Assembly: GCF_000763385.1 (NCBI RefSeq)
Contig: NZ_JQFA01000002.1
Span: forward strand, 3,162,001 to 3,226,000
Direction: 5' to 3'
DNA: 64,000 nucleotides
DNA from: Leptolyngbya sp. KIOST-1
GTDB taxonomy: Bacteria > Cyanobacteriota > Cyanobacteriia > Phormidesmidales > Phormidesmidaceae
Shown: positions 13,997-61,282 of the stretch, in pieces
Numbering within the stretch: position 1 is the stretch's first letter
Layout of the letters: each line of letters opens with the position of its first letter
The notes under the pieces: generated by a model
Told to the model about the DNA's origin: nothing
The model's database searches: none
Seen by the model: the letters and a program-made list of their open reading frames with translations, nothing else
Made by a program: the position numbers and the translations under genes

Positions 13997-14158
13997 TGCT
14001 TTAGACGGCGACGGGATTTTGCAATTGCGATCGCTGCTTAAACCACTTCTTCGGTTTCAAAGGGTAAAATCGGGCGGAAAGGGTTGGATACTAATCTGTA
14101 TCAAACTTTTTTCGCCTTTTCTAAGGCTAATTTATGAAGTCTTCAATTAACTTAATTT

Positions 14159-14392
14159 TTAAGAAGCAAAAGCAGGAGTCTTGAGGGGAACAAGAGCTTT
14201 GTGCAAAATGCAGGGTTTTGCGTTTAGGTAAATTTCACGCCGGTTGCTTTCGCTATAACCAACGACAACTGCACCTACGATTTTGCCGACTTCTGGATAG
14301 ATCAACTCACTCAACTCTCCTTCATCTAAAAAATCAGACGTTCTGCTTAACCCTTTTGTTAGAGATTTGTCAATTCGGCTTGACGAATCTCT
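14159..14392 (-). pseudogene. Truncated copy of the S1-like gene at 15478-15804
   Basis: The frame encodes a C-terminal piece closely matching residues about 40-108 of the S1-like protein encoded 1.3 kb away (shared blocks DFLDEGE, VVGY, ESNRREIYLNAKP, ILHKALVPLKTPAFA). The N-terminal half of the S1 fold is missing and replaced by unrelated sequence containing an upstream ATG (14422). This looks like the remnant of a segmental duplication within the island. A short expressed peptide cannot be excluded. Confidence 0.7.
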
Positions 14393-14432
14393 CAATCTTG
14401 CATGGGTTCTATCTTGTCTCACTCAAGTCTGC

Positions 14433-14660
14433 CTACTGAATGGGACTGAGCTGTCCCAGTTCAACGCTGACAGCATCAAAGCGATCGTCACCAGGATGGT
14501 AGGAGAGAATTTCCAAGCCAATGGGTTCTCCTGTTGTGGAGTCTTTGATTAGGATGACTCCATCACCTAGTTCGGTGCTGATTTGTTCTTTTCTAGGTGG
14601 TTGCCAGAAGACTGTCAGCAACTCGGTTTCTGGTTCGTAGAAGACTTTTACCTGCGCCAT
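14433..14660 (-). CDS. DUF2283 domain protein
   Basis: 75-residue protein that matches the DUF2283 pattern: alternating short strands VKVFYEPETELLTVFW, then a stretch ending IGLEILSY. DUF2283 proteins often sit in toxin-antitoxin-like pairs. The ATG at 14660 is preferred over a longer frame that runs into the MazF coding region; GAGAGA lies a few bases upstream. It lies 61 bases downstream of the MazF-like gene, in the same direction, so it may be a third gene of that module. Function unknown. Confidence 0.72.
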   Translation of the reverse strand: MAQVKVFYEPETELLTVFWQPPRKEQISTELGDGVILIKDSTTGEPIGLEILSYHPGDDRFDAVSVELGQLSPIQ

Positions 14661-14721
14661 ATTGTCTCTCTCTTTCAGTGACTTCAAATTTGTTGCCAGA
14701 AACCTCCTCACTGGGTATGCA

Positions 14722-15069
14722 TCAAGAGTTATGGCCATCCATTGCAGCGAAGGCAACTTTGACACAAGCTTTAATGCCTTGCCAGTCCTTTGCCGATACG
14801 TGCCCAATTACAACTAGGTTAGCGGAGCGGGGCAAGGTCACGATAAAGCTACGGAAAACCGATGGCACCCTCAACCCTGCGGTCTGCCAGTCTTGAAGCA
14901 CATAATCTGTGGTGCCCAGCCTTTTGGTTTGAGAGGTGATTAGGCCAATAATGACATCAGGGCGAAGGTCATGATACTCGTTGGAAGACAGTACAACGGC
15001 TGGGCGGCGTTTAATGCCTGTCACACCAGGAAAGTCAACCGTTACTATGTCACCCGGACTGCAACTCAC
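14722..15069 (-). CDS. MazF/PemK-family toxin (type II toxin-antitoxin endoribonuclease)
   Basis: 115-residue protein with the MazF/PemK/Kid signature: N-terminal GDIVTVDFPG, the RRPAVVLS segment (about 21-28), and the strand with SQT before KRLGTTDY. Such toxins cleave mRNA at short sequences to arrest growth. Its start overlaps the stop of the small upstream gene as ATGA, the usual antitoxin-toxin coupling. The expected arginine and the serine/threonine of the active site are present by pattern. AT-rich composition matches the surrounding island. Confidence 0.88.
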   Translation of the reverse strand: MSCSPGDIVTVDFPGVTGIKRRPAVVLSSNEYHDLRPDVIIGLITSQTKRLGTTDYVLQDWQTAGLRVPSVFRSFIVTLPRSANLVVIGHVSAKDWQGIKACVKVAFAAMDGHNS

Positions 15070-15287
15070 TCGGTCATCTCCTCATCTTCCGGAAATGCAC
15101 TCATCGCATATTGAAGAGAAAATGTCGTGAGATCAAGTTGATCTTGTTCTGTCCAGGTATCGCTGTCATCCACACCAACAGTTCCCTGAACCAAGTTATT
15201 GAGGATAAGGGTTGCTAGTTGGAGGCGTTCATTAGGCGATAGAGTTGATAAAACGTGGTTGTAAATGTCCTGAATTGCTGCTGACAT
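15066..15287 (-). CDS. Antitoxin partner of the MazF-like toxin
   Basis: 73-residue acidic protein directly upstream of, and overlapping by four bases, the MazF-like toxin gene, so almost certainly its cognate antitoxin. The N-terminal helix (IYNHVLSTLSPNERLQLATLIL) resembles the dimerising helix of Phd/DUF2281-type antitoxins; the C-terminal acidic tail (EDEEMTE) would bind the toxin. The DNA-binding fold is not obvious. A candidate autoregulatory palindrome lies about 70 bases upstream. Confidence 0.75.
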   Translation of the reverse strand: MSAAIQDIYNHVLSTLSPNERLQLATLILNNLVQGTVGVDDSDTWTEQDQLDLTTFSLQYAMSAFPEDEEMTE

Positions 15288-15326
15288 ATCACACCCCTTC
15301 TATAGAATTCTAAGGTCAGGTTGAAA

Positions 15327-15447
15327 GGCTCTTCTGGGTTTATGACTGAGACTGTATATCGTGATACACTTCACTTCCGATTGAGGGGCTGAAACCCTTG
15401 CCAAGCTTGATATAAGGCTGGCTTATCACCAGATACCCAGAAGAGCC
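15327..15447. repeat. Inverted repeat-flanked module upstream of the toxin-antitoxin genes
   Basis: A perfect 13-base inverted repeat (GGCTCTTCTGGGT at 15327-15339 and its complement at 15435-15447) encloses about 95 bases. Inside is a stretch sharing AGCTTGATATA with repeat family B elsewhere in the window, so it may be a decayed mobile repeat. Confidence 0.55.
15353..15368. promoter_or_regulatory. Candidate autoregulatory operator of the toxin-antitoxin module
   Basis: Imperfect palindrome TGTATATCGTGATACA with five-base arms, 66 bases upstream of the antitoxin start. Placement fits a toxin-antitoxin operator. No binding evidence is available. Confidence 0.35.
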
Positions 15448-15477
15448 GGTTGAAATAACCATTCTGGCTTCCACTCA

Positions 15478-15804
15478 CTAAGTAGCGAAGGCTGGTGTCT
15501 TGAGAGGGACAAGAGCTTTGTGTAAAATGCTGGGCTTTGCATTTAGATAAATTTCGCGGCGGTTGCTCTCGTTATAGCCAACGACAATTGCACCTACAAT
15601 TTCACCAAGTTCTGGATACATCGATTCATTCATTTCTCCTTCATCTAGAAAATCAGGAATTCTGATTAATCCTTGTGCTGGAGATTCGTCAATTTTTAGG
15701 AAAACCCCAAAAGGCGCATGAAACTCAACTTCGCCTTGCACAAACTGGCCCAACTTATATCGAGATTTGACTTGCTCCCAACTTGTGTCATCCATTCTGC
15801 TCAC
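15478..15804 (-). CDS. S1-like RNA-binding domain protein
   Basis: 108-residue protein whose first 75 residues fit an S1/OB fold: the opening GQFVQGEVEFHAPFGVFLKI followed by GLIRIPDFL, as in ribosomal S1 repeats. It probably binds RNA or nucleic acid. Its start overlaps the upstream orphan gene by four bases, so the two form a coupled pair inside the island. A truncated duplicate lies at 14159. Role in the pair is unknown; an antidote or immunity function is a speculation based only on gene order. Confidence 0.72.
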   Translation of the reverse strand: MSRMDDTSWEQVKSRYKLGQFVQGEVEFHAPFGVFLKIDESPAQGLIRIPDFLDEGEMNESMYPELGEIVGAIVVGYNESNRREIYLNAKPSILHKALVPLKTPAFAT

Positions 15805-16166
15805 CGTGGTTTAAGGACTCGTGAAAATTGATTTAGGACTGGAAATAGATTTTGAGGGATGACTACCTCAACTCTTCTGAGACCGTCTTGCTCATCATAG
15901 CAATACTCTAATGACTGGAAATACTGCTTGTAAGCCTCTCGATCAATAGTGACTTCAAGGATGCCTTCTTGGTAGCTTTGGTTGAACTCTTCGGCAATGC
16001 TTTTGTCATTGGGGCCAGCGAAGTAGCATTTGCCATCGAAGTAGGGAGGATTGTAGGGGAAGTCATCGAGTTGAAATCCTTTTTCTAGTAGTTTTTTGCC
16101 TTTGCCTCTTTGAGGGGCTTTATATATGGTAACGAACTGGATAGATGATGCCTGATCAGACTGCAT
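15801..16166 (-). CDS. Orphan protein coupled to the S1-like gene
   Basis: 121-residue protein not recognised with confidence. The segment YFAGPNDKSIAEEF followed by GILEVTIDREAY (about residues 47-75) has the layout seen in some ADP-ribosyltransferase-fold toxins, where an aromatic-rich strand is followed by a helix and a GxLxVxI strand. This is a weak visual resemblance only. Its stop overlaps the S1-like start by four bases (ATGA), so the products are probably made in fixed ratio. AT-rich codon use as in the rest of the island. Confidence 0.6.
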   Translation of the reverse strand: MQSDQASSIQFVTIYKAPQRGKGKKLLEKGFQLDDFPYNPPYFDGKCYFAGPNDKSIAEEFNQSYQEGILEVTIDREAYKQYFQSLEYCYDEQDGLRRVEVVIPQNLFPVLNQFSRVLKPR

Positions 16167-16457
16167 GATTTAGCGTTTCAATAGAGAAATCAGTATATTT
16201 TCTCTACAGACCAACCGTAGGCAAGGTAATCCATGGCGATCTGGGCGACGCGAACCCGTGGAAGTCGCTGTAATCGGACAGGTTGATCGTCTTGCTTCTC
16301 AATGTGTGGGTAACTCAGGGCTAGCATACTCTTTCGTTGTTCCCTAGCTAAGTTTCCATATTCCTACAGTGTAATATCTTCTACTGATAGCAAGTATTTC
16401 TCTGCCAAGGTAACTCTAAAATCAGCGGCGAATTGACGAGTCCAGCATATTGCCTTG

Positions 16458-17540
16458 TTAGCTTTTCTCTTGAGTGCTTGATCTTGTATTACTAGTACAA
16501 AAATCAAGAAACTCTTTGCGCTTCTTATACTCTAAATTTATCATATACTGAGACATATACTCATAGTCAGGTGTACAAATATTGGTAACAGGAAGCATGA
16601 TTTTTTGACGTTTCAAGCGTGATTCGTTGAATTTGTAGGCGTATTGGTACTTACTCTTCTGCTTTAGAATTATATTTTTTAAGAAAAGATATAGATATTT
16701 GCTTCCTTCAATGCTCTTGAGAGATAAGCGTTTTACATCGTCTGAAAAAATGGCGGTGTATGGGTGATAAAAGTTTTCTACAACACTGCCATTGTAATTC
16801 ACACCAAGAATATTGCTGTCTTCTGAGGAATTGGTATTTGCAACAAAAGCAGTTATGCCGTTGTTAGAGTCTGTTGAACCAATAAAGGGTTTTCTGCCTA
16901 CTTTCATATCAGCCTTAGTTAAACGTCTGCCAGCCTTAATCTCTGCTATATCTTCAATAAAGAACTCATGCCACTCCTTATCTTCAAGTGGTTCGATATC
17001 TTTGAGTTTGAGCCTGGCTAATTCTTTTCGACAATGCTTGATATACTCAGCTTTTTTTTGCTCCATCAAGGCTTTTATGTAATTCTCCATGAATTGCCAG
17101 TCAGGTTCTCCACTAGCATTAATAGGAAGCATAACTTTTTGGCGTTTTAGTCTTGCCGTTCCCATCTTATAACCGTAGTTATACTTATCACGCTGACTAC
17201 AGATCTGAGTAGATAGGAAGAGCCCAACGTATTTTGATTTGTTATACGGACGTAACTTACGGCAATCATTTGAGAACAGTCCCTTATATGGGTGATAAAA
17301 AGAATAACCCACGGAACCATTACGATTCACTGAAAGGCAGTTTTCTTCTAACGTATTGTTACTGTTTCCTACAAAATGGCTGATGCCGTTATTTTTTGCA
17401 GTAGAAGAAATATACGGAGTATTTCCAGCATATCGTTCTGCTTCATAAATATCTCTTCCTGATAATATTTCAGCAACATCTTCAATAAAAAATTCACTCC
17501 AATCTTTATCCTCAAGATTCAACAACATTTTCAGCCTCAT
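16458..17540 (-). CDS. BcgI-like type IIB restriction system, specificity subunit
   Basis: 360-residue specificity subunit with two target-recognition halves of similar design: each begins with an EFFIED-AEI-type segment (near residues 16 and 192) and ends with a conserved RLKRQK-MLP block. Two different half-site recognition domains separated by helical spacers should read a bipartite target. Length is close to the BcgI B subunit (about 341 aa). It overlaps the endonuclease-methylase gene by 29 bases; an ATG at 17528 is an alternative start. The AT-rich composition indicates transfer. Confidence 0.85.
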   Translation of the reverse strand: MRLKMLLNLEDKDWSEFFIEDVAEILSGRDIYEAERYAGNTPYISSTAKNNGISHFVGNSNNTLEENCLSVNRNGSVGYSFYHPYKGLFSNDCRKLRPYNKSKYVGLFLSTQICSQRDKYNYGYKMGTARLKRQKVMLPINASGEPDWQFMENYIKALMEQKKAEYIKHCRKELARLKLKDIEPLEDKEWHEFFIEDIAEIKAGRRLTKADMKVGRKPFIGSTDSNNGITAFVANTNSSEDSNILGVNYNGSVVENFYHPYTAIFSDDVKRLSLKSIEGSKYLYLFLKNIILKQKSKYQYAYKFNESRLKRQKIMLPVTNICTPDYEYMSQYMINLEYKKRKEFLDFCTSNTRSSTQEKS

Positions 17541-19446
17541 CCGTCTCTAAAGATTCAAACAAATATTTTCGATTTTGCATAATCATTGAAAACTCGAAAG
17601 TGAGATAGTCTCCAATAGTCTTTTCAAATTCTGCATCGGAGGGGACTTCATCATTAAAGTAATAGAAGCTATGTAGCCACTCATCATTGGCTTCAACAGT
17701 CGTTTTAACACAAAATTTGCTTTCTGCTTCGATTCGGTCAAACCAAACATCCAGCAAGTGTTGTTTTCTATCTTTAGCTTGTTCCGTTTCAATTAAGCCA
17801 ATATGGGGACTGACCTTAAAGCCATCTTCTCTAAAATCAATAAACTTACACTCTTTATCTGCAATATGTGGCTCACCTGCTGTAAAGATGGCAATACAGG
17901 GCATAGTCCCAACGCCATAGAATGTGTCTTTGTTTAATGTGATAACGCCTTCCAAGGTGTGTTTTTTGAGAATATTAGCTTGAATGGCTTTTTCTTCATG
18001 AGTTTTGCCCGTAACCGAAGATTGAGGAATAATTACGATAGCCCGGCCACCCTCAACTAAAGAATCCAATAGATGCTCGGTGAACGCAATTTCGTACAAG
18101 TCAGGGTTTTTCTTTGATCCTTGTGAGTAAGGCGGATTCATCATCCCAACCGTAGCTGCCTTGAGTTGTAGCTTGTTTGGGGCTTCTTTTAGAAAATTGC
18201 AATTGATTAAGTTGCTTTTGCCATCGCCTCTAAGAATCATATTGGTTGTAGCAATGGTAAACATATAAGGCTGCAACTCAAAACCATGTAGTTGTTTTTG
18301 CCGAATATTTTTCTTGGTGTTTTCGTTGCCGGTTTGGGCAAGCATATAGTGCATTGCGGCAATTAAGAAGCCAGCAGTTCCAGCACAAGGATCAAAAACC
18401 ACGTCATCAGCTTTCACGCCTACCAATTCACAAAATAAATCGGTGATGTGCTTTGGAGTTAATACAATTCCAAGTGTTTGCCCATCTCCACCGGAATATG
18501 ACATAAACTCACCATAAAATCGCCCCAAGTAATCTTCTGACGAGCTTGTATACTTGATGCTTTTGTAAATTTTCTCATGCAAAAATTCAGTAAAGTGCTT
18601 GAGAGGTGTTTTGTTTAATGTTGAATTCAGTTCATTCAGAAGATGAGTATCTTTGATGATAGAGAATTGACTTAGGATCTTGTCTCTCTTGACTTCTGGT
18701 GAAACTCTCGAACGCTTTAAGTTTTTCTCAATAGAGTTGTAAATTTTCTCGCCATCTGTATCAATTTCATCGCCGTTCAAGTTATCAATTTCAAAGCTAC
18801 CAAATTCTGCTTCACGCAATGCAAGAAGTATCCCTGAAACGATAAGCGGCTTATCAATATCCTTGAGATTTCCATAATTACGCAAGTCTTCATGTAACTC
18901 TGCGGCATCTCTGAGGATTTCGGCCAGCTCTTTCTCTCGATCAGTATCTTCCTGAAGAACTTCTCTGATGTAATACTCAGAAATGTTTTGTTCGTTGAAT
19001 GAGATAAAAGACTCTACCTCGGGTAGCTCACGATAGTATTCTGTCTCATCAATAAATAAAGGGCTGATTTTGTGCTTTTTCTCGTCACCAGAAATCCCGA
19101 ATGCTATGATTTTTTTATATAAAGTATTTTGAGCTAGATGCTGGCCGTAAAACAGAGCTCCATTTACGGAAAAATCTTGAACATCTTTTGCTACAAGGCT
19201 TATCAAGCCCTTGGAATCCAGTTTTATGTGTTTGGCTAAGTCGGCCTTGTTCTCAATAACAATAAGAAAGTCTTTAACTACACCAACAAACTCAGGAAAA
19301 CCTACTTTGCCAGAACCGCTCTTGGATGCTGTCTTTAGGGCTTTGTCAATTTCAAGAATGGTGCTTCCTTGAGGTTCTAACTCAATGCCAGCGTCTTTTA
19401 ATAAACCATGAACCCAGAAATCCGTTTTTGCTTCTTTCTTAGCCAC
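17512..19446 (-). CDS. BcgI-like type IIB restriction endonuclease-methyltransferase subunit
   Basis: 644-residue fusion of an N-terminal PD-(D/E)xK nuclease with an N6-adenine methyltransferase. Nuclease core: Pro51-Glu52, Asp59 and Glu65-x-Lys67 (IVIENK). Methylase motif I DPCAGTAGF near 350-358 and motif IV NPPY near 435-438. Length almost equals that of BcgI A (about 637 aa), and the next gene is the matching S subunit, so together they should cut on both sides of a bipartite site and protect by methylation. All key residues look intact, so the system may be active. Start ATG 19446. Confidence 0.87.
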   Translation of the reverse strand: MAKKEAKTDFWVHGLLKDAGIELEPQGSTILEIDKALKTASKSGSGKVGFPEFVGVVKDFLIVIENKADLAKHIKLDSKGLISLVAKDVQDFSVNGALFYGQHLAQNTLYKKIIAFGISGDEKKHKISPLFIDETEYYRELPEVESFISFNEQNISEYYIREVLQEDTDREKELAEILRDAAELHEDLRNYGNLKDIDKPLIVSGILLALREAEFGSFEIDNLNGDEIDTDGEKIYNSIEKNLKRSRVSPEVKRDKILSQFSIIKDTHLLNELNSTLNKTPLKHFTEFLHEKIYKSIKYTSSSEDYLGRFYGEFMSYSGGDGQTLGIVLTPKHITDLFCELVGVKADDVVFDPCAGTAGFLIAAMHYMLAQTGNENTKKNIRQKQLHGFELQPYMFTIATTNMILRGDGKSNLINCNFLKEAPNKLQLKAATVGMMNPPYSQGSKKNPDLYEIAFTEHLLDSLVEGGRAIVIIPQSSVTGKTHEEKAIQANILKKHTLEGVITLNKDTFYGVGTMPCIAIFTAGEPHIADKECKFIDFREDGFKVSPHIGLIETEQAKDRKQHLLDVWFDRIEAESKFCVKTTVEANDEWLHSFYYFNDEVPSDAEFEKTIGDYLTFEFSMIMQNRKYLFESLETDEAENVVES

Positions 19447-19518
19447 TCAGTTACTCCAGATTGTAAAATTAATATTTCAGCTTTCCAAACCAGACTAATC
19501 ACAAGGTATGCTAACTAG

Positions 19519-19628
19519 CTAGTACTCTGAGGCGGAAGTAAATCTACCGCTGCGCAAGTTTCTGGCTTGCCATAAGCACACGACGACTGCGCTACAATAG
19601 TTGAGAAATTTCTGACTCAGTGTACTAG
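19519..19628. repeat. 110-bp MITE-like foldback element
   Basis: Ends are inverted copies of CTAGTAC(T/A)CTGAG (19519-19531 and 19616-19628, one mismatch), with weaker complementarity continuing inward, so the element could fold back almost completely. No coding capacity. It lies at the right edge of the AT-rich island, between the restriction operon and the tubulin-like gene. A target duplication is not obvious. Confidence 0.6.
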
Positions 19629-19650
19629 ATATTTTGGGGTATGCACTTCC

Positions 19651-22600
19651 CTAAGCCAATTCCGATCGCACGTTCTCCTCAATAATCGCCACCTGCTCAT
19701 TGGTCAGGCCCAGTTCTTCCTGGAGTTCCAGCAGTTGGGCCTGTTCTTCCAGGTCAACCTCGCCGTCATTTTCGATGAAAGCGCGGAACATCAGGGCGTA
19801 TTCAGCGGCGGCCTGTTCGAGGGTGTTTTGAGGTTGGTATTGGGCGGCGATCGCATTCGCCTGTTCCACCGATACCCCGTACTTCACCCGGAATTTCTCC
19901 AGCAGCTCTAGCTCCGTGGGCGAGGGATTGCCTCGCCGATAGCAGGTTTCGACCAGCTTGGCGTATTTGGCCAGGTTTTCGGAGTCGAGGGCGGGGGGAG
20001 GGGGGGGAGATTGGGGAGAGGGGGAAGAGGGGGAAGAGGGGGTGGGCGGTTGGGGCGGTTGGGGCGCACTGCTGTGCGCCCGTACGGGGGCTTCGGGCGC
20101 GGCGGATTCGCCGGGGATGAAGAGGCGGTGGGTGGTGACGAAGTCGGCGATCGCCGCCTGGATGCGCTTGTACTCGTCGCTATCGGAGCCACCGGGGAGC
20201 GTTTGTTCTTGCTGTTGCAGGTAGGTCATCACCTGGGTGTAGAGGACCTGCTTTTGAGGTTTGGTAGCGGCCTGTTCACCGATGGCGCGGATGCTGTTGT
20301 CCAGGGTTTCTGCCAGTCGGCGGTTTTGGTCGGTGAGGAGAAAGTCCTCCGCTTCGGCCCAGGTGGCCCCCATGACTTCGGTTTTGTCGAAGCCGGTGAG
20401 CTTGTCGCGGTAGGTGAATTTGACCTCGGCAAAGCCCGTCACCCGGTTGTCTTCGCGGCGCACCAGGCCCAGGGCGTTGGCCAGCATCAGGTTGTAGCGG
20501 GCCTGGCGTTCGTTGCTGGTTTCAGGCATCACATCGCCAAACTGGCGGTAGTCCTGGTGGGTGTGCAGGGGGTTGTGGTCGGCCTGGCCCACGGCGCGGT
20601 AGAGCGATCGCATCCGTTCCATGCCCTCAATCAGCCGCAGCGGGAAGGCTCCGGTCTCCTGCACAAAGTAGATGTGGTAGGGGTCGTTGAGGGGGCGAAT
20701 TTCCTTGTCGGTGACGGTGCTGGTCTTGCGGATCATCGGCAGCAGGGCGGAGACCGCCGGGTCGGTGGGTTTGCTGCCCCCCTGGATGCCGACCAGCTTC
20801 TGGTACTTCTCCAGCTTGTCGTCCCAGCCCAGTTTTTTCTGCTCCTGGCTGAGGCGCAGGAAGGGTTCCGACTTCTCAAAGGTGGTCTTGATCTGGGCTT
20901 CCTGCATTTCCACGGTGGGGTACTGCTCCAGGAACTTGCGGGCGGTGGAGATGTCGAGCTGGCTGCGGCGGCGAAACACCTCCATGGCTTGCCCCAGCAG
21001 CCGTTCGTAGAGGTCTTTGGTCTTCAGGGCGTCGAAGGGGTAGAGGTCGAACAGGCGCAGCCGCAGGTCTTCCAGCACCTGCTGGGAGAGGGTCTGGCAG
21101 AGGGTTTCTTCCTGGTCGGCGACGGTGCTGCGGTAGGCGGCGTCGATCTCCTTTTCGTCGTAGAGCAGAATGCCGTTGACCGTCAGGCCGCTGGTTTCGC
21201 GGGTGTAGACCCGCTCCTTGTCGCGCAGCTCGCTCTGCACGGTGGTCAGCACGGTTTCAAAGGCGGTCAGATCCACCAAAAGCTGGTCGATTTCCTCCCG
21301 CAGGCCGTCCAGCAGCATCACCCCCAGGGTGCGGGCCTTGACCTCGACTTTGGACACGTAGATCTGCTCCAGCGCCTGCATGATGCCCTGAAAGTCGTCT
21401 TCGATGACCTTCTTGCGGTTGAGCATCATCATCTGCTTGGCGTGGTTGTCGATCTGCTTCAGCAGGGTTTGCAGGGCGTTTTGGGCCGATCGCTCCCTGG
21501 GCAACCAGTACTTCTGGCGGTCCTGGTCAAATTTGCTGCGAAAGTCGGCAAACACCTCGATCAGCACTTCCAAAAACTGCCGGGTGAACTTTGGCCCCCG
21601 GAAGCGGTCTTCCACCATCTGGTACACCGCTTCCCGCAGTTCCCGCCGCTTTTCGGGGATCAGCCAGCTGAGGTTGTCCCACATTTTTTGGAAGTAGTCG
21701 CTCCAGCGTTTGGGGTCAGTGCCGGTGTCGTGGAAGTGGGGCCGATACTTTTCTTCTTCGTTGGAGATGAACCGTTGCAGGTTCTCGAAGGGGATGTTGA
21801 GGTCGTTGCGGCGCTTGCGGATGCTGGCCACCCAGTCGGCGACTTCCTTGGCGTAGGGCTTTTTGTTGTCGCCCATGCTGATGCTGTCGATGATCTGGTG
21901 ATCGTGCTCCGATTCGGCCAGAAATAGGCCAGGCAAAATCTCGGTGCGAATCAGGTCGGACATGGCGGCGGGGGCGGGGGTGGGGTTGCTCCACCAGTCC
22001 ACCAGCTTGCCCGCCAGGCGGGCCGAGCAGGCGTTCAGCACCCGCTCCACCGGAAACTGCACGCTGGAGAGGCCAAAGCTCATGAAGTTCTGGGGGTAGC
22101 CCAGGGCGTCTGGGCTGGCCCAGTGTTTGCGCACGTTGTCGCGCACCAGCTTTTTGTACTGGCTGAAGCCGGAGGTGAAATCTAGAAACACATTCTGGGC
22201 CACCATCTCCAGCACGTCCCCCAGGGTGGGGAAGGTGACTTTGTCGTTACTGTTGCCCACCAGGTAGGTGAAGTTGAAGGGGGTGTCGAGACCGCTCTGG
22301 CTGGTGATGCGATCGCTCTGGCTGTCGCTGTACTGAGCGTCGAAGCGGGTGTCGCTGCGGCTGTAGTGGTTCAGCTCCATCAGGGCGGCGTAGGCATTGG
22401 CAATGACGCGATCGCCCAACCCCGAAAACGCCCCCGGCAGCACCAGAAAAGCGCTGGTCTGGGGCAGCTCGGAGATCGGCACCCAGTCGCGCAGGTTGTA
22501 GGCCAGATCCAGCACCATGCCGGAGCCGGTACCGCCCGAGAGCGAACACACCACAAAGATGTTGATGCCCTTGTCGAGCTGCACCTTCCAGCGATCGAGC

Positions 22601-56977: not shown

Positions 56978-59605
56978 CTAGGCCAGATTGAGCGGATCGA
57001 CATCGATGGTGAGGCTCACCGCAGCCGGACAGTGGGGCTTCAGGTCCTGTAGGTTGGGCAGAGGATGCCCCAGCGGTCCCTTGACCAGCAGATGCCAGCG
57101 AAACCGGCGCGCCACCCGGGGAATGGGAGCGGGGGCGGGGCCGAGCAGTTGGTAGGGTGAGTCCTGAAGACGCCGGGTCAGGCGGTGGGCCAGGGTTTCA
57201 GCCGTCTCCTGCACTGCCTTGGGGTCGGTGCTGCTCAGCCGCAGCAGAATCATTTGCCCCGCCGGGGGGTACTGCAACAGCTGTCGCTGCGCCCACTCCG
57301 TGGCGATAAACCCCTCGTAGGCGTGCCGGGTCACCGCTTCGACCACCGGGTGGTCGGGGGTGTAGGTCTGCAAAATCACCTGGCCAGGCTGAGCACCCCG
57401 TCCCGCCCGGCCCGCCACCTGAATCAGCATTTGCAGGGCGCGCTCACTGGCCCAATAGTCATTCATATATAGGAGTCCGTCGGCGGCGATAATGCCGACC
57501 AGGGTGACCTGGGGCAGATCGATGCCTTTGGTCAGCATTTGGGTGCCCACCAGCAAATCCGCCTCGCCTGCGGCAAAGCGAGTCAGCAGGGCGCGGTGAG
57601 CCCCTTTGGTACGCGTCGTGTCGCTGTCGAACCGAATGCAGCTGAGGTCGGGAAAGGTTTCGGCCAGGGCATTGACCACCCGCTGGGTGCCGCTGCCAAA
57701 GTGCTTCAGGTAGGGCGAGCTGCACGCCGGGCAGTGTTTGGGATGGCCCTGGCTAAAGCCACAGTAGTGGCAGCGCAAGGTCATGGCGCTGGTGGCCCCA
57801 GGCTGGTGGTACGACAGCGATACATCACAGTGGGGGCACATCATCACGTGGCCACAGCTGCGGCAGGAGACGAAACTGCTGTGCCCCCGCCGATGAATGA
57901 ACAGCAGGCCCTGGTTGCCCTCGGCTTTCATGGCGCTCAGGGCTTGCTGCAGCGATCGGCTGAGAATGCTGCGGTTGCCCTCCTGGAGTTCGTCGCGCAT
58001 GTCGACAACGTTGACCTGGGGCAGGGGCTGGGCCTGGACCCGCTCGGGGAGGGAGAGGTAGGTCCAGGGGAGAGAGGGGGGAGTGGATGGGTGGGTGGGT
58101 AGATGGGTGGATGGGTGGATGTGGGTAGGGGAAGATTTAGGGATTGGGGTGCTATTAGAGGAGTCTGGGCGGGTTTCGGCGACGGGTGAATCGGTAAGGT
58201 TTGGGTAGAGGGTGGGCAGTGCCCACCCTACGGGTTCTAAACCCTCATCACCTAGGCCCTGGCACTGTACCCAGGTATCGAGGGAGGGGGTGGCCGAACC
58301 CAGCACCAGGGGGCAGTCTTCTAACTCGGCTCGCCAACGGGCTACGGTGCGGGCGTGGTAGCAGGGGGGTACGTCCTGCTTGTAGCTGCTGTCGTGTTCT
58401 TCGTCGAGAATGATCAGCCCCAGGGTTGGCAGGGGCATAAAGATCGCTGAGCGGGTGCCCACAATCACCAGGGGTTGGGGGGGCCTGAGACTCTGTCGCC
58501 AGGTGTCGTAGCGTTCGCCATCGGCCAGAGCGCTGTGGTAGACCAGCACCTGGGCCCCAAAGCGGCGGCGAAAACGATCGGTGAGTTGGGGAGTGAGGCC
58601 AATTTCGGGCACCAGCACCAGGGCCGACTGCCCGGCGGCCAGCCGTGGGGCGATCGCCTGCAGGTACACCTCGGTTTTGCCCGACCCGGTGACCCCGTGC
58701 AGCAAAAACTGACCGCCCTGCCCACACCTATTAATAGAATCGAGCGCCTGGGCCTGGAGGGGAGTCAGGGGCTTGGGCTGATCGCGGGCCAGGGCTGGCC
58801 CGGCTTCGACCCGCAGCTGCTCCCGCGATTCAATCACCAGACAGCCAGCCTGGGCCAACCGCCTGAGGGTGGGACTGGTGGTCTGACAGAGCTGCAGGGC
58901 GTCGCTGAGCCACAGGTCACCGCCCTGGCGGCGCAGGGTGGCCACAATCTGCTGCTGGCGAGGGGTGAGGCCGGGGGGAAGGGTATCGCCACAGACCAGC
59001 GTGACGGCCTGGCGCTGTTTGGCCTGGGGCGGCTGAGGGGGAGCCAGGTACGACTCGGCCCAGCCCAGCTGAATTAACTGCTGTATGGTTCGATAACTAT
59101 GGCCGCGCCGCTGCAGGTAGGGCCAGGTGTAGTCCCCCGTGGGCGATCGCTGGAGATCATCTAATAGATCGTTCACCCCTGGGGTCAGGGGATGGGGCAG
59201 GGGGTGGGCGGTGCGATCGCGCCGCAGCCGCAGCCGTCGCTGGGACCTGGCCAGCAGCCCCGGTGGCAACGCCGTCTTCAGTACCTGGATGAGCGGCACC
59301 TGGTAGTGGTGGGCCACCCGCTGCAGCAGCGCCCAGTAGGCCGGGGCAAAGAACCGCTGCTCCACCACCCCCTCCACCGGACGAATTTGGCCGGGCACCA
59401 GGTTGGCGGGCGGGGTGGTGGAGAGGGAAAGCGCGATCCCCCCAATGCTCTGGTGACGAAATGGCACCGTCAAAATATCGCCCACCTGTACCGCTAGGTG
59501 ATTGGGCACAGCATAGGTATACTCTGCGGGCTGGCCGCCGTAGTCCACCAAAACATTGACCCACTGGGGCTGGGTATCGCTCTCACCAAGGCCCACGCTT
59601 GCCAC
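56978..59605 (-). CDS. priA: Primosomal replication protein N' (PriA helicase) with expanded linker
   Basis: Restarts stalled replication forks by loading the primosome. About 875 residues from the chosen GTG. Walker A GVTGSGKTE at about 304-312, DEEH box at 401-404, and the zinc-binding cysteine pairs of the primosomal domain (CRSCG, CPHC, CHYCG, CPAC) near 600-650 are all present. Between the helicase lobes, about 65 residues (449-514) are Pro/Thr/His-rich and translated from a palindromic repeat and a (GGGTGGAT)n minisatellite. The GTG at 59605 is preferred; the frame extends to 59674, but that DNA is a DnaA-box cluster. Confidence 0.9.
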   Translation of the reverse strand: MASVGLGESDTQPQWVNVLVDYGGQPAEYTYAVPNHLAVQVGDILTVPFRHQSIGGIALSLSTTPPANLVPGQIRPVEGVVEQRFFAPAYWALLQRVAHHYQVPLIQVLKTALPPGLLARSQRRLRLRRDRTAHPLPHPLTPGVNDLLDDLQRSPTGDYTWPYLQRRGHSYRTIQQLIQLGWAESYLAPPQPPQAKQRQAVTLVCGDTLPPGLTPRQQQIVATLRRQGGDLWLSDALQLCQTTSPTLRRLAQAGCLVIESREQLRVEAGPALARDQPKPLTPLQAQALDSINRCGQGGQFLLHGVTGSGKTEVYLQAIAPRLAAGQSALVLVPEIGLTPQLTDRFRRRFGAQVLVYHSALADGERYDTWRQSLRPPQPLVIVGTRSAIFMPLPTLGLIILDEEHDSSYKQDVPPCYHARTVARWRAELEDCPLVLGSATPSLDTWVQCQGLGDEGLEPVGWALPTLYPNLTDSPVAETRPDSSNSTPIPKSSPTHIHPSTHLPTHPSTPPSLPWTYLSLPERVQAQPLPQVNVVDMRDELQEGNRSILSRSLQQALSAMKAEGNQGLLFIHRRGHSSFVSCRSCGHVMMCPHCDVSLSYHQPGATSAMTLRCHYCGFSQGHPKHCPACSSPYLKHFGSGTQRVVNALAETFPDLSCIRFDSDTTRTKGAHRALLTRFAAGEADLLVGTQMLTKGIDLPQVTLVGIIAADGLLYMNDYWASERALQMLIQVAGRAGRGAQPGQVILQTYTPDHPVVEAVTRHAYEGFIATEWAQRQLLQYPPAGQMILLRLSSTDPKAVQETAETLAHRLTRRLQDSPYQLLGPAPAPIPRVARRFRWHLLVKGPLGHPLPNLQDLKPHCPAAVSLTIDVDPLNLA
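58081..58128. repeat. GGGTGGAT minisatellite inside priA
   Basis: Tandem GGGTGGAT/GGGTGGGTAGAT units on the plus strand, encoding the Pro/Thr/His-rich insert. Likely variable between strains. Confidence 0.8.
58209..58229. repeat. Palindromic GGGTGGGCA repeat inserted in priA
   Basis: 10-base arms AGGGTGGGCA/TGCCCACCCT around one base. A related palindrome lies upstream of lipA at 61864. Here it is in frame, adding residues without breaking priA. Confidence 0.75.
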
Positions 59606-60103
59606 ACCATTGCTGTCACCTCTGCCAGTGTACGAGGTTGACGGTTTGCTTCCCCAAACCCACAGGTTTTCCACAACTTATTTTCTGTGGAAAACTTTTC
59701 CACAGGGTGGAAAAGTTCGGCGGCGAGGTTCATCGGAAAACCTGGAGAGATCCCCGGTGCCGCCAACAGCAACCCCACTCTGCCAAAGGACATAAGTGAT
59801 TATTCCTAGACTCCGATCAATGCTTGGGCAAAGTACCCGAGGATAGCAAAAATTCCTTTAAGGTTTCCCTTATATTTTCAGTCCACTTTTTGATTTCACT
59901 GCTACACTACGCAAGTTGCCAAAGAAATGTTACATTGCCTGGGAATTCACAAAAATATCCGTATTGTGGACTCACAAAATAAGTCGAAGATCCGTTTCCG
60001 GGATCAAGTCTTTTGTTAGGGGTTGCCGTCGGCAGGGCGCTCCGAATATACATGCCCCACATCTGCATGATTCGACCTGTAGGTATACCGTTCTATTAAC
60101 CCC
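59606..60103. other. Divergent priA/sigma spacer with DnaA boxes and AT-rich stretch
   Basis: About 500 bases. The priA-proximal part holds the DnaA-box cluster; the stretch from about 59840 to 59990 is clearly AT-rich. Promoters for priA and the sigma factor gene must lie here. Confidence 0.6.
59667..59714. promoter_or_regulatory. Cluster of DnaA boxes
   Basis: Three perfect copies of the cyanobacterial DnaA box TTTTCCACA: 59667-59675 (+), 59686-59694 (-) and 59696-59704 (+), plus a one-mismatch copy at 59706-59714 (-). The middle two form the palindrome TGTGGAAAACTTTTCCACA. Confidence 0.75.
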
Positions 60104-61282
60104 ATGAATACTACGTATAACTCTGACAGAGATAGCTCTATTGCCTGGCCCGACGACGCCATAGACGGGTTCGACACCGACCTGAATCGGATGGCCGAAA
60201 AAGTCTCCGCTGCGGACAGCCAACTCGCCCCTGACCTCACCGCCTGGGACGAAGATCGGGAGGTGCTGGCTAAGTTTTCTCAGTCAGAGGCCATGTCCGA
60301 GATGGGGCTGACGGGCTACAGCAAAACCCTCACCGACGATGCCGTTGGGGCCTTCTTTAAAGAGATGGCCCGCTACCCGCTACTCAAACCCAGCGAAGAA
60401 ATTGAGCTGGCCCGCCAGGTACGATTCTTGTCCAAGGTGGAAACTGCCAGCGAAAAACTCCAGAAGGAGCTAGGTCGGAAACCGACTCGACAGGAACTGG
60501 TGGAGAAATTAAAGCTCAGCGAAGCAGAGTTTACCCAAAAGCTCCACGACGGCAGAACGGCTAAGCGCCGAATGATTCGCTCCAATCTGCGGCTCGTTGT
60601 GTCGATCGCCAAGCGCTATTTAAACCGTGGGGTACCTTTTCTCGATCTGATTCAGGAGGGCGCGCTGGGTTTAAACCGGGCTACCGAAAAATTTGATCCC
60701 GACAAGGGCTACAAATTTTCGACCTACGCCTACTGGTGGATTCGCCAGGGCATTACCCGCACCATCGCCAACGATGCCCGCACCATTCGCCTGCCGATCC
60801 ACATTGTGGAAAAGCTGAACAAGCTGAAGAAAGCCCACCGCGATCTGCGCCGCGATTTGCAGCGCAACCCCAGCGAACAAGAGTTGGCCGATGCCCTGGA
60901 TGTGACGGTTGATCAGCTCAGAAGTTTGCAGCAGGTGCGCCGCCGCTCCCTGTCCCTCAACCACCGCGTAGGCAAAGGCGAAGATACCGAGCTGATGGAG
61001 TTGCTCGAAGACAGCAGCACCCAGACGCCGGAGTCAAAAATCAGCGAGAACATGATGCGCCAGGAAATTACCAGCGTGCTGGCGGAGGTGCTGACCGAGC
61101 GCGAGAAGGACATCATTACCTTGCGCTACGGCCTCGCCACGGGCGAAACCCACACCCTGGAGGAGGTAGGCGGCATCTTCAACCTGTCGCGGGAGCGGGT
61201 GCGCCAGATTCAAACCAAGGCGATGCGCAAGCTGCGCCGTCCCCAGGTGGCGGCTCGCCTGAAGGGCTGGCTCAACAAGTAG
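60104..61282 (+). CDS. Group 2 RNA polymerase sigma factor, SigC-like
   Basis: 392-residue sigma-70 family protein with an acidic N-terminus (1-75), region 1.2 (AVGAFFKEMARYPLL), region 2 (NLRLVVSIAKRYLNRG... KFSTYAYWWIRQGITRTIAN), region 3 and region 4 ending in LRRPQVAARLKGWL. Lacks the long region 1.1 of the primary sigma. The GAFFKEMARYPLLKP sequence points to the SigC branch, a guess from memory. It should direct transcription under stress or stationary conditions. Start ATG 60104. Divergent from priA; followed by a strong terminator. Confidence 0.9.
   Translation: MNTTYNSDRDSSIAWPDDAIDGFDTDLNRMAEKVSAADSQLAPDLTAWDEDREVLAKFSQSEAMSEMGLTGYSKTLTDDAVGAFFKEMARYPLLKPSEEIELARQVRFLSKVETASEKLQKELGRKPTRQELVEKLKLSEAEFTQKLHDGRTAKRRMIRSNLRLVVSIAKRYLNRGVPFLDLIQEGALGLNRATEKFDPDKGYKFSTYAYWWIRQGITRTIANDARTIRLPIHIVEKLNKLKKAHRDLRRDLQRNPSEQELADALDVTVDQLRSLQQVRRRSLSLNHRVGKGEDTELMELLEDSSTQTPESKISENMMRQEITSVLAEVLTEREKDIITLRYGLATGETHTLEEVGGIFNLSRERVRQIQTKAMRKLRRPQVAARLKGWLNK

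Follow-up and report, generated by a model that had tools for sequence, protein, structure and literature searches.

The window analysed here, a stretch of 64,000 nucleotides from the genome of Leptolyngbya sp. KIOST-1, contains a cluster of DnaA boxes far beyond chance in the gap between a sigma factor gene and priA. We propose that this cluster is an extra-origin DnaA-binding array of the titration or control type, lying close to the likely replication origin, an explanation to which we give about an even chance. It would be a further case of the known extra-origin DnaA-box clusters and is probably not an origin itself. DnaA binding, titration and an effect on initiation are what we infer from the sequence.

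Boxes and layout of the array

The array spans 48 bases, positions 59667-59714 of the window, and consists of three exact TTTTCCACA boxes and one near-match, TTTTCCACC. The initial annotation had placed three perfect boxes and a near-match in 48 bases, and both coordinates and letters were confirmed. Box 1 (59667-59675, plus strand) is the priA-proximal one and is kept in most of the array clade. Box 2 (59686-59694, minus strand), 19 bp from box 1 and kept in the array clade, pairs with box 3 (59696-59704, plus strand) as a 19-base palindrome. The near-match (59706-59714, minus strand) stands at a place where most relatives have an exact box. The box spacing in this genome is 19, 10 and 10 bp. 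The palindrome, also claimed earlier, indeed covers 59686-59704 with the exception of the central base. TTTTCCACA is given as the known cyanobacterial DnaA box in the available part of PMC4674748, with which the earlier identification of the box agrees. The window has a fourth exact box (60805-60813, minus strand), which stands alone within the sigma reading frame, where the coding sequence alone perhaps accounts for it. No Rfam family reached the gathering score in the gap between the sigma gene and priA.

The four exact boxes of the window compare with 0.53 expected, and 0 of 100 shuffles reached that count. Boxes as such are hardly enriched genome-wide, as the 6,320,123-base genome has 38 exact boxes versus 30 for the reversed control. 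The array is the sole place in the whole genome with two exact boxes within 1 kb, and about 2e-6 triplets within 38 bp would be expected if the 38 boxes were placed randomly. When one mismatch per box was allowed, a scan of 862 kb of this genome found more than two boxes per 200 bp only at the array (four) and in the region upstream of dnaN (five). Of 63 genomes in the order, 59 have direct-orientation pairs of exact boxes, indicating that arrays are common in this group; the reversed pattern gave one hit in one genome. Some of these order-wide pairs are the dnaN site, and several lie at other genes. Exact-box pairs away from dnaN and priA were seen in related genomes at loci L126, L153, L155, L157, L159 and L164, the L159 pair being near a ParA-like gene (named by eye).

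Flanking genes and the distance to their starts

The two genes flanking the array are divergent. On the minus strand lies priA, encoding the replication restart helicase (56978-59596; TIGR00595 and NF004066 above cut-off), and on the plus strand the gene for a sigma-70 family sigma factor of the cyanobacterial RpoD/SigA family (60104-61282; TIGR02997 above cut-off). The PriA protein shares 80-89% identity with its counterparts at the eight nearest loci, some of which belong to named Nodosilinea strains, and by its sequence the source of the window is a filamentous cyanobacterium close to Nodosilinea. The longest priA frame starts at 59674 and overlaps the array. From conservation we infer that priA starts at the GTG at 59596, with which the array boxes would probably be intergenic.

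The place of the array in a gap between divergent promoters would fit a role in transcription. DnaA at the array may repress or activate the sigma gene, priA or both, thereby coupling restart capacity or the transcription programme to the DnaA level, and we regard this as a real though tentative alternative to the extra-origin array. The distance from the sigma start to the first box is 387-413 bp in 18 of 18 array genomes, and such a fixed distance fits control of the sigma gene as well as it fits a titration array; however, nearly 400 bp is far for classical repression. On the priA side, a putative conserved -10-like element, TACACT (59627-59632, minus strand), was found upstream of the gene by alignment. 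It is 34 bp from box 1 in this genome, a spacing which favours promoter control, but much farther from it in some relatives. The distance from the nearest box to the priA reference codon, 33 bp inside the start at 59596, also varies widely among the array genomes, from 112 to 356 bp, and the conserved blocks upstream of both genes persist in array-less genomes, which argues against such control. A consensus promoter scan of the gap returned no site. In the DnaA-independent cyanobacteria, a passage of PMC7198777 suggests, DnaA likely acts as a transcriptional regulator of specific genes, which is in line with promoter control.

Conservation of the array in relatives

Of 26 genus genomes, 18 have an array between the sigma gene and priA, 15 of the consensus and three of a variant type; in two of the 26 (G026 and G027) contig ends make the gap unreadable. 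One genome counted as consensus (G028) has a near-match beside two exact boxes. G029 and G037 have two lone boxes each, separated by 210 bp, and G034, G038, G039 and G040 have none. The variant arrays, in which TTTTCAACA/CTTTCCACA replace most consensus boxes, belong to the closely related G033, G032 and G030 (loci L235, L237 and L249, respectively). Altered DnaA specificity was considered for these three genomes with TTTTCAACA boxes and found no support upon comparison of the DnaA end, the core of which is nearly the same as in relatives. Across the 12 genomes compared, the core of the DNA-binding part of DnaA is nearly identical. The array genomes form one clade, supported at 98/99 by DnaN (17 array rows in the tree) and at 99/99 by DnaA (16 array rows).

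In the array alignment the pairwise identity averages 93% over 27 box columns and 50% over 141 other columns, a contrast arising partly by choice, as the box columns were defined by boxes present in at least half of the genomes. A neutral cluster without function, retained by common descent, would be confined to one clade, as the array is; however, the box columns stand out in this alignment and G030, G032 and G033 retain an array despite the changed letters, making neutrality very improbable.

Exact boxes were also searched for up to 1.5 kb upstream of priA at 76 of 80 loci, leaving out L009, L032, L064 and L069, which have little or no upstream DNA. At least two exact boxes within 60 bp upstream of priA were found at seven of the 76 loci, namely the close relatives L003, L005, L006, L007, L008 and L010, and L021, whose distant box pair is at about -900. 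L007 is that of Nodosilinea nodulosa PCC 7104. An exact-box scan does not pick up the variant array of L004.

In most relatives the boxes run head-to-tail at 20-22 bp, and a further box at 19 bp is inverted. Among the 18 array genomes, a 10-bp distance between exact boxes is confined to this genome and G043, and therefore the palindrome is not the conserved feature. The near-perfect 19-base palindrome of this genome might suggest an operator of a different dimeric regulator reading TGTGGAAAA-N-TTTTCCACA, but this has very little to recommend it, given the lack of conservation and a dnaN site built of the same box unit. As the array is conserved and beyond chance, it is likely a DnaA-binding site.

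The AT-rich stretch beside the boxes

The AT-rich DNA reported earlier beside the boxes was found again, with 36-40% GC over 59800-59999 in 100-base windows versus 54-63% in the sampled stretches. Its sigma-proximal part (59920-59990, plus strand) is a conserved upstream region of the sigma gene, showing 94-95% identity with the other members of the array clade and 80-85% with six array-less genomes. Irrespective of the array, all 24 genomes compared have AATGTAACATTTCTT there, and 22 of the 24 have GTGAGTCCACAATACG. Since it is conserved without boxes too, this part belongs to the sigma gene and is probably its promoter or leader. The remaining part (59840-59919, no strand assigned) has 30-42% GC. 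It is 79-83% alike within the array clade versus 45-54% in array-less genomes, and may be linked to the array; the equivalent place in array-less genomes is also AT-rich, with 40-43% GC. Elsewhere in the window, positions 14000-20000 have 38-45% GC and carry frames resembling type I restriction-modification methylase and specificity genes (named by eye), a region that was probably acquired.

A candidate oriC upstream of dnaN

The dnaN gene is located at C2:3247917-3249035, and dnaA is on another contig. The array is 26 kb from dnaN and 27.6 kb from a box site upstream of it. This site contains five one-mismatch boxes at -508, -487, -414, -385 and -332 (C2:3249359-3249543), all near-consensus and without any exact box among them in this genome. 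The spacing of about 21, 72-73, 28-29 and 53-54 recurs in most genus genomes and in eight sister-genus rows, with fewer of the boxes in G030, G032 and G033; of these, G032 and G033 have just two left within 700 bp of dnaN, both with one mismatch. The gene order is dnaA-boxes-dnaN in four rows of genus g3 and two of g4, and priA-boxes-dnaN in one of g5.

Past the last box upstream of dnaN follow a box-like TTTTCACA/TTTCCACA, a short spacer, a CTA-type run resembling a DnaA-trio and an AT-rich tract. Across 25 genus rows the trio-like run reaches scores of 11-18 of 18; it always lies on the dnaN-sense strand and has flanks of the same kind. The score exceeds the maximum of 20 shuffles in 19 of 25 genus rows and in eight of eight sister rows. 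In the other six genus rows it does not, this genome scoring 13 with shuffles up to 13, so that the case for the trio rests on the like flanks in all rows, box-like before and AT-rich after. The layout is that of the basal unwinding system of boxes and DnaA-trio as described in an excerpt of PMC8287927. All 24 genus genomes that gave a dnaN hit show the oriC anatomy upstream of dnaN, as do the eight sister-genus rows, although it is weaker in a few, and from this anatomy replication likely starts upstream of dnaN. The oriC of S. elongatus is also near dnaN, going by the part of PMC7198777 that could be accessed. About 4 kb past the oriC boxes, a 350-bp unit is repeated 7.9 times with 99% identity (C2 about 3253325-3256091; L109:7325-10091); it lies in reverse-transcriptase-like frames (named by eye) and reflects either internal tandem expansion or an artefact of the assembly. 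Extra dnaN-like copies (L196-L201) were seen in G022, G034, G038 and G039, and one copy in G039 (L196) has a box-rich upstream region of its own.

Two other indicators of an origin were tried and set aside. At 26 genus dnaA loci, some of them shortened by contig ends, the neighbourhood of dnaA shows no clustering: a locus has four boxes at most (exact or one mismatch), and these are scattered. The GC skew over forty sampled stretches and the window is mainly gene-strand skew; the best break in the sampled C2 is not significant (permutation 0.15), and the sampled skew is unchanged at both the dnaN-upstream site and the array. Such a skew resembles the irregular profiles of DnaA-independent cyanobacteria shown in the accessible section of PMC7198777, and hence neither supports nor refutes an origin. 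In cyanobacteria with an irregular GC skew, e.g. Synechocystis and Nostoc PCC 7120, replication does not need DnaA, according to the same portion of that paper.

The initial annotation had suggested a replication origin component at the array, a proposal that the conserved oriC anatomy 27.6 kb away and the missing trio in the gap speak against. The best CTA-repeat score in the gap of this genome is 10 of 18, with a shuffle mean of 10.0, and across relatives the gap scores 9-12 of 18 at scattered places, with 0 of 24 rows above shuffles. A denser box cluster elsewhere and a GC-skew minimum had been named as what would count against an origin here: a conserved origin-like cluster does exist upstream of dnaN, but its boxes are near-consensus instead of exact, and the skew shows no significant break. 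A second or relocated origin, or its relic, now with strong boxes, would explain why the array is the sole multi-box site of exact boxes in the genome while the dnaN boxes of the same clade are mostly off-consensus, and would make use of the AT-rich DNA about 125 bp off, of which 59840-59919 is alike in the array clade and not in array-less genomes. However, besides the missing trio, the dnaN site retains the box positions, the trio-like run and the AT tract, and the array is not next to dnaA or dnaN. The AT-rich stretch argues against an origin at the array only in part, its most conserved portion being present without boxes, and a GC-skew break is found at neither site. For want of a trio and in view of the separate oriC-like site, an origin at the array is rejected, and a second or relocated one appears improbable.

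Box strength at the array and at the probable oriC

The array and oriC are about 22-40 kb apart in all eight array genomes in which a single contig carries both (G000, G022, G030, G031, G042, G043, G044 and G045). In the array-less G038, priA and dnaN are about 450 kb apart if the 4.3-Mb contig is circular, and farther otherwise. Of 17 array-clade genomes, 13 lack any exact box up to 700 bp from dnaN, the exceptions being G031, G030 and G044 with one and G043 with two. Among the other seven genus genomes, G029, G037, G026 and G038 have two to three exact boxes at this distance (G026 being included although its array status is not readable), G040 has one, and G034 and G039 have none. G034 has one exact box beyond 700 bp but within 1 kb of dnaN, whereas G039 lacks one at its main dnaN although it is array-less. 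All eight sister-genus rows have three to five exact boxes within 700 bp of dnaN.

This inverse relation of box strengths suggests that strong DnaA sites have shifted from oriC to a decoy array. A more specific version, which we consider rather doubtful, is an initiator decoy swap in which the consensus boxes were lost from oriC on one branch of the genus and the array of consensus boxes arose at a fixed place 22-40 kb away. The oriC would then keep conserved near-matches, e.g. TTTTCCCCA, and initiation would depend on the single origin-linked decoy, which would fill before the weak origin. If true, a cyanobacterial lineage would provide a natural case of the initiator-titration model.

Proposed mechanism and comparison with known systems

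For the extra-origin array, we propose that DnaA binds the three or four boxes in the gap between the sigma gene and priA cooperatively. The spacing of 19-22 bp in most relatives corresponds to about two helical turns, which would place the boxes on one DNA face. The array would most likely hold DnaA near oriC as an origin-linked sink, and the DnaA held there would set the amount of free DnaA reaching the weaker oriC boxes. It may also affect the sigma or priA promoter at the same time. Several points weaken this explanation. The distance of 22-40 kb is a shared synteny of one clade instead of a set of independent events, and the link between the array and a degraded oriC likewise represents one branch, into which the array-less G039 and G034 fit badly. 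In addition, DnaA may not control initiation here at all, as in the DnaA-independent cyanobacteria of PMC7198777, in so far as its available text goes.

Clusters of this kind are known outside cyanobacteria. In Streptomyces coelicolor, D78 is a high-affinity DnaA-box cluster outside oriC but in the origin region, stronger than oriC, and lowers the initiation frequency; compared with the array, it has another box sequence and belongs to another phylum. The DBCs of Bacillus subtilis, like the array, consist of DnaA boxes grouped outside oriC. When all six of them are deleted, initiation comes early, as stated in a portion of the review PMC5295017. However, the effect of these clusters is strong only when all six are removed, and they have no significant initiation role according to the same portion of that review, which also counts against titration by the array. 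The DBCs are six sites, whereas the array is one dominant site in a cyanobacterium, in the gap between the sigma gene and priA. The datA locus of Escherichia coli is another extra-origin DnaA-box cluster, with a high capacity for DnaA uptake (PMC5835720, in the part available), and the array resembles its titration side; however, datA acts mainly by IHF-dependent hydrolysis of DnaA-ATP, and its box layout and chromosomal place are unlike those of the array. The cyanobacterial oriC upstream of dnaN in S. elongatus and Cyanothece uses the same box TTTTCCACA, as far as the accessible text of PMC4674748 shows, but the array is away from dnaN, its gap has no DnaA-trio and a separate oriC-like site is present. 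Published titles on cyanobacterial DnaA, on DnaA boxes with priA and on Nodosilinea DnaA, mostly judged by title, included none on an array at priA.

In this genome the sole cluster of exact boxes and the site with oriC anatomy are different places, and scanning for boxes by itself could therefore misname the origin. If DnaA binds the array, the clade would be a simple natural test of DnaA use in a cyanobacterium without visible GC skew, in which a strong decoy and a weak origin could be set against sister species whose origin boxes are still strong.
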